NCBI GenBank assembly: GCA_028681575.1
Contig: JAQUHX010000004.1
Location: 1 to 56,141, forward strand
Length of the DNA: 56,141 nt
From: Patescibacteria group bacterium
GTDB taxonomy: Bacteria; Patescibacteriota; Patescibacteriia; Patescibacteriales; UBA12465
Direction: 5' to 3'
In this document: positions 53,074 to 54,860 of the stretch, piece by piece
Layout of the letters: each line of letters opens with the position of its first letter
Numbering within the stretch: position 1 is the stretch's first letter
Program-made: the position numbers and the translations under genes
Notes under the pieces: model-generated
Database searches by the model: none
What the model was told of the DNA's origin: nothing
Seen by the model: the letters and a program-made list of their open reading frames with translations, nothing else

Positions 53074-53337
53074 CTATTTAAGCGGATCATAGCCACCCTT
53101 ATTCCAAGGATTGCAGCGCAAAATACGCCAAATAGTCATTAAGCCACCTTTAATCGCCCCATATTTCTCTAGGGCTTGAATGCCGTAATCAGAACAAGAA
53201 GGCGTAAAACGACAAAAACCGTGAGGCCAATGCTCTTTAAAAAAACCGTGGTCAGGAGAAAGTGTTTTTTGATAAAGTTTAATTACAGCAATCCCTAATT
53301 TCCGCGGCCAATACCAAAAGATAAAATTGTCATTCAT
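53074..53337 (-). CDS. yidD: Membrane protein insertion efficiency factor YidD
   Basis: Small membrane-associated protein that helps YidC-dependent insertion. The signature is complete: [37 protein letters not shown] and [15 protein letters not shown], with Cys residues at the PSCS and RCNPW positions. Length 87 is normal. Usually it sits between rnpA and yidC; here it stands ahead of nrdJ. It has a near-consensus promoter with leaderless geometry. Confidence 0.97.
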
Positions 53338-53403: not shown

Positions 53404-54024
53404 TTAGAGTTTTTTCAAGAGAAGACTAGTTAAAAGAGAATATCTTTTTTCTATTTTTGGGTTTAAAAAAACAAAACCTATTTTAGTAGAAAAAATTGAT
53501 AACCCCTCCTTCTCAATGAAAGTACCAATAGTCTTTTTAGCAAACGAATGTTTATCGTTGCGGATACAAAGCAAACGCTTAACCCCAAAACCATCAGAAA
53601 ACGACGGACTAACAATAATGAGCTTTTCGAGATTCAGCTTTCGCAAATCAGCGTCAGAAATTGCCATCCTTAAAAGGGCGGCGATTTCTACCGTTGCCGG
53701 TAAAAACCCTTTCTTCTCAGCTGCTTGCCGAATTTCCGAAAAAGTCATTTTGTTAAACTTGAGAATAGCAATACCAATCGAGTCAGAACTAGCCTCGCCT
53801 TCAGAGTTGATAAAAATTTCTCGTGCCTCAGCAGAAAAGTAATACCCTTTTTCCTGAAGCTTACAAACCAAATCTTTTGGCGATCCGCTTTCAGGTTTCA
53901 GATTGAGTAAAATTTGATCCTTAAAATTGACAATGAGCGACGGAGCAAGCCTAAGCAAAAAGAAAGGTAAGATGACAAAAATAAAAACAACAAGCAAAAT
54001 TGCAAAAATCATATTTGTCTCCAT
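53404..54024 (-). CDS. Membrane-anchored protein with a CPR-type uncharacterised domain
   Basis: One strong N-terminal membrane helix (about 5-27) is followed by a 175-residue soluble part. It contains a helix pair with KGFLPATVEIAALLRMAISDADLRKL and a beta-rich end (KLIIVSPSFSDGFGVKRLLCIRNDK ... IGFVFL). The phrase GFLPATVEIAALL resembles recurring, unnamed proteins I associate with Patescibacteria genomes. Length 206. It is 2 bases after the next gene upstream, whose C-terminal half has a similar helix-then-strand plan. Function unknown; it should face either side of the membrane as an anchored domain. Confidence 0.75.
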   Translation of the reverse strand: METNMIFAILLVVFIFVILPFFLLRLAPSLIVNFKDQILLNLKPESGSPKDLVCKLQEKGYYFSAEAREIFINSEGEASSDSIGIAILKFNKMTFSEIRQAAEKKGFLPATVEIAALLRMAISDADLRKLNLEKLIIVSPSFSDGFGVKRLLCIRNDKHSFAKKTIGTFIEKEGLSIFSTKIGFVFLNPKIEKRYSLLTSLLLKKL

Positions 54025-54026
54025 AA

Positions 54027-54860
54027 TTAACCTTTTTTAAATCCGTTAACTGTCACATCCGCATAAGCCAGAAAATCAAAATTCTCGTCAAAATCTGAAT
54101 CCAAAGGCACTAATTCCAAACGCGGAACCCCATCTTCATGAACAAAAACCGGGATATAGGAATTGTCATCAATTTCATCCCAATAAATCGTCCCCAGAGA
54201 ACAAACATACCTTTTTGACCAATCTTTTGGAATCAAATTTCGATTATCCAAAAGAAAATAAAAAAGATTAACATTGGGAGATTTTTCCCTGAGAGAGCAA
54301 AAATAAGAGGAAAAACCATTTTTCAAGCCCTCGGGTTTAAGCAGCTTATAATCTCGAAGATTAAAAACTGTTGGGTCTTTAAAATTATTAAACCCAAGCT
54401 GGAACCCCTTGATATCCGCCGGACAATGCTGAAAATTTACCCGCTCGATATTATGAATAATCCGAGCACTACCAGAAACTACTCGCCTCATCAGGTGCCC
54501 CTGGTTTTCAATAATTCCCTGCAAAGCGTGAATAATTTCATCATAATTTAAAGCGTGCCGCTCCAACAAATCCCTAATTTTTTGATAAACCAGAAAAATT
54601 TGGTGAATCAACATCTGCTCATCAACAATGTCCTTGGTGGGGACTTCCGAAAAAAGAGCGTCCGAAGACCGAATAGGCTCAAGACCATTTTTGATGGCCG
54701 CAGGAATAATCCAGGCATTACCTTCGGTTAACAAATTCAACTCACAAATAGTGCTTTGATAGCTCAAGGAGTGATTTTCAATTCTCTTTTTTACCTCTTC
54801 AAGCTTTTTAACCAAAACTCCAATCTGAAAGTCAGCTAATTTTCTTCTACTTTCGTTCAT
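54027..54860 (-). CDS. Uncharacterised protein with helical N-terminus and CPR-type C-terminal domain
   Basis: A soluble 277-residue protein. Residues 1 to about 135 are helical, Leu/Glu-rich and partly coiled (FQIGVLVKKLEEVKKRIENHS, LLERHALNYDEIIHALQGIIENQGHLMRRV). The C-terminal part (about 160-270) has NLIPKDWSKRYVCSLGTIYWDEID followed by strands ending FDFLAYADV, resembling the plan of the neighbouring protein and of unnamed Patescibacteria families. No signal peptide. It is first in a two-gene operon with a near-consensus promoter and an unusually long structured leader. Function not recognised. Confidence 0.75.
   Translation of the reverse strand: MNESRRKLADFQIGVLVKKLEEVKKRIENHSLSYQSTICELNLLTEGNAWIIPAAIKNGLEPIRSSDALFSEVPTKDIVDEQMLIHQIFLVYQKIRDLLERHALNYDEIIHALQGIIENQGHLMRRVVSGSARIIHNIERVNFQHCPADIKGFQLGFNNFKDPTVFNLRDYKLLKPEGLKNGFSSYFCSLREKSPNVNLFYFLLDNRNLIPKDWSKRYVCSLGTIYWDEIDDNSYIPVFVHEDGVPRLELVPLDSDFDENFDFLAYADVTVNGFKKG

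Follow-up and report, generated by a model that had tools for sequence, protein, structure and literature searches.

A pair of adjacent genes in a tiny, Falkowbacteria-like genome of the Patescibacteria raises the question of what two uncharacterized neighbouring proteins, here called A and B, are related to and whether they belong together. The window, meaning the whole stretch of 56,141 nucleotides that was analysed, is part of a genome of 28 contigs (G000). The initial annotation had placed at one end of it two open reading frames (ORFs) that seemed to share a C-terminal domain, and had offered them as the best candidate for an undescribed system.

Genomic context of the gene pair

The gene for protein A (277 aa) occupies positions 54027..54860 and the gene for protein B (206 aa) positions 53404..54024, both on the minus strand and separated by 2 bases, which upholds both coordinates given in the initial annotation; the sequence motifs that it had quoted were found in both proteins. 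A 335-aa gene lies upstream of the pair, and yidD and two further genes lie downstream, the latter two taken by us, by eye from the sequence and without a family search, to encode a ribonucleotide reductase and a HEAT-like protein. The yidD gene (membrane protein insertion factor; 53074-53337 of the window) is situated directly downstream of B, occupies the same spot in the same-genus genome G001, and sits outside the usual rnpA/yidC setting. When A and B were compared to Pfam, NCBIfam, PADLOC, and PHROGs, no family scored above cut-off. In NCBIfam, B weakly matched ribosome-inactivating toxin subunits (E 0.015, 14 bits; cut-off 720) and A weakly matched exodeoxyribonuclease VII; both matches were judged to be due to chance, and the promoter and terminator scan returned signals at chance level.

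Relationship to diversity-generating retroelement targets

The search of 98 related genomes recovered orthologues of both proteins in G001 (53% identity for A and 50-51% for B) and orthologues of A in G005 and G018 (37-38% identity). The other matches were short and weak, and several of them had genes for a reverse transcriptase (RT) and for Avd, a four-helix protein, as neighbours. According to the profile searches, 24 genomes out of 111 from the order carried A-type proteins and 16 carried B-type proteins, and among 380 genomes sampled across the phylum the counts were 27 and 22, respectively, so that the C-termini do come from recurring unnamed proteins of Patescibacteria, as had been proposed. 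The titles of 80 named A-type loci were nearly all Patescibacteria or unclassified bacteria, with two loci titled Micavibrio and Methylocapsa that possibly reflect contamination, and the Falkowbacteria loci grouped within window A's own family.

The usual cassette of these families consists of the target gene, a template repeat (TR), the avd gene on the opposite strand, and the RT gene. Comparison of each TR with the variable region (VR) of its target placed 476 of 508 mismatches at TR adenines in 35 unique A-type cassettes and 181 of 194 in 15 unique B-type cassettes, with adenine making up 24-25% of the TR bases. Because the mismatches are concentrated at TR adenines, both families consist of variable proteins targeted by diversity-generating retroelements (DGRs). 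The recurring proteins are thus DGR targets, and the pair is not of an undescribed kind, contrary to what had been suspected. The viral contigs searched contained no relatives of A or B, which argues, within that viral collection, against phage tropism proteins.

Membership of the window proteins themselves was determined with DGR-only HMMs, built from TR-verified targets alone (35 for the A-type model) and searched against 329 ORFs. Window A matched the A-type model with an E value of 5.3e-9, and its orthologues with values from 1e-13 to 8e-23. Window B was marginal (E 0.004), and its relatives in G001 (E 5.8e-11) and on contig C4 of G000 (E 1.5e-10) matched clearly; with a direct E value of only 0.004, the membership of B depends mainly on the 50%-identical G001 orthologue. 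The count of paralogues in G000 gave one member of the A family and three of the B family (the window protein, the copy on contig C4, and a DGR target on contig C19). A second, divergent A-like protein (L108, 398-958; E 2.5e-6 with the DGR-only model) was located near the A orthologue of G005.

Several other arrangements were observed among the collected loci. L270 (7755-12350) contains, in this order, an A-type target, a B-type TR and Avd, an IS200-like transposase, and a second DGR that is distinct from the first. This second DGR has a TR and a VR of its own, and 14 of the 15 mismatches between them fall on TR adenines. Locus L121 (contig C23 of genome G014, 154-1515) carries an A-type gene followed by a B-type gene at the edge of the contig, matching the gene order of the window, and RVT_1 reverse transcriptases of G014 are located on contigs other than C23. 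Loci L175, L176, L181, and L189 encode proteins of 464-650 aa that join a B-type C-terminus to a large upstream domain of another kind. This domain contains a GTGWCTAGES-like motif, and we take it to resemble PcfJ-type proteins; a TR is present for L175 and L176. The A-type proteins of L123, L125, and L126 bear signal-peptide-like N-termini, have no RT nearby, and are possibly exported fixed relatives.

Diversification at the pair and elsewhere in the genome

The segment of A equivalent to a DGR variable region, defined by alignment to verified VRs, corresponds to residues 227-265 (54066..54182, minus strand) and that of B to residues 150-190 (53455..53577, minus strand). The pair is not diversified. 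No TR for A was found within 3 kb (29/50, at background level), and none for either protein in the genome; no second copy of the 3' end of A or B was present in the G000 genome; and neither an RT nor an Avd was encoded in the window. The sole RT of G000 is situated on contig C19, where the RT (RVT_1, 84 bits), Avd (bAvd, 43.9 against a cut-off of 40), a TR (2685-2816 of L028), and a target that is a paralogue of B, containing the VR, form one unit. This VR differs from its TR at 22 of 33 TR adenines and at 14 of 99 other bases. The C19 TR matched its own target at 45/60 positions, the window pair at 30/60, and the rest of the window at 32/60, the last value representing background. In G013, the TR of a DGR matched a copy of B situated about 15 kb away at 53/60 positions, so remote targets occur in the family and are detectable by the same comparison. 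In all, one TR on contig C1 of G013 (L130, L131, L133) matched two additional copies of B elsewhere on the contig at their 3' ends, with 53/60 and 51/60 positions, as remote targets.

Domain architecture and predicted fold

Protein A begins with a helical module (residues 6-48; 54717..54845, minus strand) that aligned to the N-termini of L107, L108, L114, and L269 and is duplicated as an internal repeat at residues 85-130 (54471..54608, minus strand). The repeat was equalled by 5 of 1000 shuffles for the window protein and by 1 of 1000 for G001; the module is single in G005 and G018 and double in A. In the structural model of A, a long helix spans residues 3-44, with a pLDDT of about 80 up to residue 20 and below 50 from residue 34. 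This type of module is common to A-type and B-type DGR targets, as are other N-terminal modules, with up to 71% identity over 35 aa (E 2.5e-15).

In B, the N-terminal module of the DGR targets is replaced by a predicted transmembrane helix at about residues 6-27 (53944..54009, minus strand). The mean hydropathy over residues 6-23 of B was 3.33, and the G001 orthologue reached 3.05; A has no such helix, and a hydrophobic N-terminal stretch of any sort was found in 8 of 164 family members. The earlier description of one soluble protein with a coiled N-terminus and one membrane-anchored protein therefore agrees with the hydropathy values and with the model of A. Lysine and arginine are absent before the helix of B, and an arginine and a lysine follow just after it, which by the positive-inside rule suggests that the B domain lies on the cytoplasmic side. 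Placed in the cytoplasm alongside A, it would allow a two-part complex.

The C-terminal domain of A (residues 145-268; 54057..54428, minus strand) was predicted to be C-type-lectin-like, with an AF2 pLDDT mostly between 79 and 96. Five of the six VIA matches over residues 138-268 were C-type-lectin folds, namely the Bd2740 tip domain, ZK002, two rhodocetin entries, and 7jpu, which we take to be the C-type-lectin-like domain of an endocytic receptor; the sixth was SERA5E. All six had Z scores of 2.3-3.7, and the Bd2740 tip domain (8oks_A; Z 3.7, 88 aligned residues, 3.7 A) was among the best. With Z scores of 2.3-3.7, the matches are consistent with, and not proof of, the C-type-lectin-like domain expected of DGR targets. 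The top VIA rows for A, which covered the helical N-terminus (residues 69-134), looked like generic helical hairpins and were set aside. Foldseek returned no match under E 0.001 with the A model, and the PDB sequence profiles returned none for A or B.

The C-terminal domain of B (residues 80-188; 53461..53787, minus strand) is homologous to B-type DGR targets according to the alignment and the DGR-only HMM. Its AF2 model, obtained from two usable sequences, was poor (pLDDT 47), and fold matches from it are meaningless. Regarding the domain that A and B were proposed to share, BLASTP (E 0.089) and hhalign with 12 against 11 sequences (E 0.27) were non-significant. With 120 against 41 sequences, hhalign of the two C-termini was suggestive (E 0.0011, Prob 21%, score 26.6), and this score exceeded those of all 60 shuffled or reversed decoys (maximum 18.3), although the match takes in the variable segment as well as the DxxG turn, and similar residue usage shaped by DGR mutagenesis could inflate the score there. 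The proposal of a shared domain thus stands on the comparison with decoys and falls short on the profile probability, the smaller profiles, and BLASTP; from these alignments, homology of the two C-terminal domains is likely but unproven.

Conservation and inheritance

Between the window and G001, dN was 0.37 for A and 0.44 for B, and dS was 2.0 and 1.4, respectively; dS is near saturation, so the dN/dS ratios are rough. The VR-equivalent segments showed no hypervariability between the two genomes and were conserved above average instead: residues 150-190 of B, its best-conserved part, were identical at 29 of 41 positions (71%) against about 50% for the whole protein, and residues 216-265 of A at 30 of 50 positions (60%) against 53%. 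G001 keeps the complete order of the 335-aa gene, A, B, yidD, the ribonucleotide reductase gene, and the gene encoding the HEAT-like protein, and G005 and G018 keep A followed by the HEAT-like gene; no RT was found in G001, G005, or G018. In the tree, window A clustered with the G001 orthologue and the G005 and G018 proteins with modest support (88). A and B are inherited vertically as a gene pair. RT-linked and free copies were mixed in the A-type tree of 122 sequences, and the direction of change, that is, gain or loss of DGR control, could not be read from it owing to the small number of columns, the poor resolution, and label changes that carry no direction.

Discussion

The best explanation overall, and one that we consider probable, is that A and B represent fixed, "retired" relatives of two DGR target families with a wide distribution in Patescibacteria. 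The C-terminal part of each protein would be a C-type-lectin-like binding domain with a frozen surface. A would be cytoplasmic and carry the duplicated helical module as an adaptor, and B would be held in the inner membrane by its one N-terminal helix, with its domain facing the cytoplasm. The pair would then act as a membrane-tethered recognition or scaffolding unit with one constant ligand, perhaps each other; the ligand and a direct contact between A and B are guesses to which we give rather low odds. Retirement of a DGR-controlled ancestor and later capture of such proteins by a DGR would both fit.

Among the other explanations, the most serious is that A and B have unrelated folds and are DGR target families and neighbours by chance, with neither a common domain nor joint action. 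The non-significant BLAST and small-profile results and the 21% probability of the best hhalign comparison speak for it. The score above all decoys, the N-terminal modules common to both families, the A-then-B order in another genus (G014), and the neighbouring B-type TR and A-type target of L270 speak against it, and we regard it as rather unlikely, at about one chance in four. Decay is far less probable: A and B have no DGR and do not finish with the canonical C-termini of target proteins (GFAFVVSQVS, PAALAS), as functionless remnants might, but dN is well below dS in both proteins across two species at about 50% identity, the frames are open, order and synteny are fixed, and B is conserved best in its former variable segment.

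Mutation of the pair in trans, as remote targets of the C19 DGR, would fit the remote match in G013 and the fact that G000 owns one DGR RT with Avd and TR. The match of the C19 TR to the pair, however, stays at background level, far below that to its own target, the 3' ends of A and B have no other genomic copy, and the pair is kept in the RT-less G001, so this reading is very improbable. A toxin-antitoxin or defence function is, in our view, equally improbable: the pair is a small unit of two genes 2 bases apart, but PADLOC, Pfam, and NCBIfam matches are absent and its surroundings are fixed core genes rather than a defence island.

Considering fixed relatives of DGR targets as the preferred reading, the closest known proteins are the targets of the Patescibacteria-restricted DGR clade (clade 2), in which conserved domains, transmembrane ones included, can typically not be recognised, among which novel C-type-lectin variants are expected, and whose true non-membrane status and role were left open (Roux et al. 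2021, PMC8144416). The window pair shares with them homologous C-terminal domains, the host group, and the N-terminal module of A; it differs in having no TR and no adjacent RT or Avd, in its constant VR-equivalent segments, and in the transmembrane anchor of B, which is typically missing in clade 2 (PMC8144416). Like the Bordetella phage Mtd and the Thermus aquaticus and archaeal variable proteins (PMC6328139, PMC5006420), the families place the variable region in a C-terminal binding domain, and the C-terminal domain of A gives weak but consistent C-type-lectin matches; unlike them, the pair is not diversified and has no sequence match to solved structures. The tip domain of Bdellovibrio Bd2740, a constant, calcium-free C-type-lectin adhesin (PMC10769870), is among the best fold matches to the C-terminal domain of A, but Bd2740 tips a long surface fibre, whereas both window proteins are short and an export signal is missing from A. 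No description of RT-free, vertically fixed relatives of DGR targets was found in the literature searched, which did not include Paul et al. 2017.

A constant, vertically inherited pair with one membrane-anchored member offers a tractable handle on the DGR targets of Patescibacteria, since the ligand of a single fixed sequence can be approached biochemically and that of a hypervariable protein is the hard case. More tentatively, and with somewhat less than even confidence, Patescibacteria may repeatedly free DGR targets from mutagenesis and keep frozen variants as vertically inherited binding proteins; here, two families would have been retired next to each other as a conserved pair, one member of which would be attached to the inner membrane, and the DGR library would be a source of new cellular genes. 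The pair also suggests that hypermutation systems may supply new fixed genes to very small genomes.
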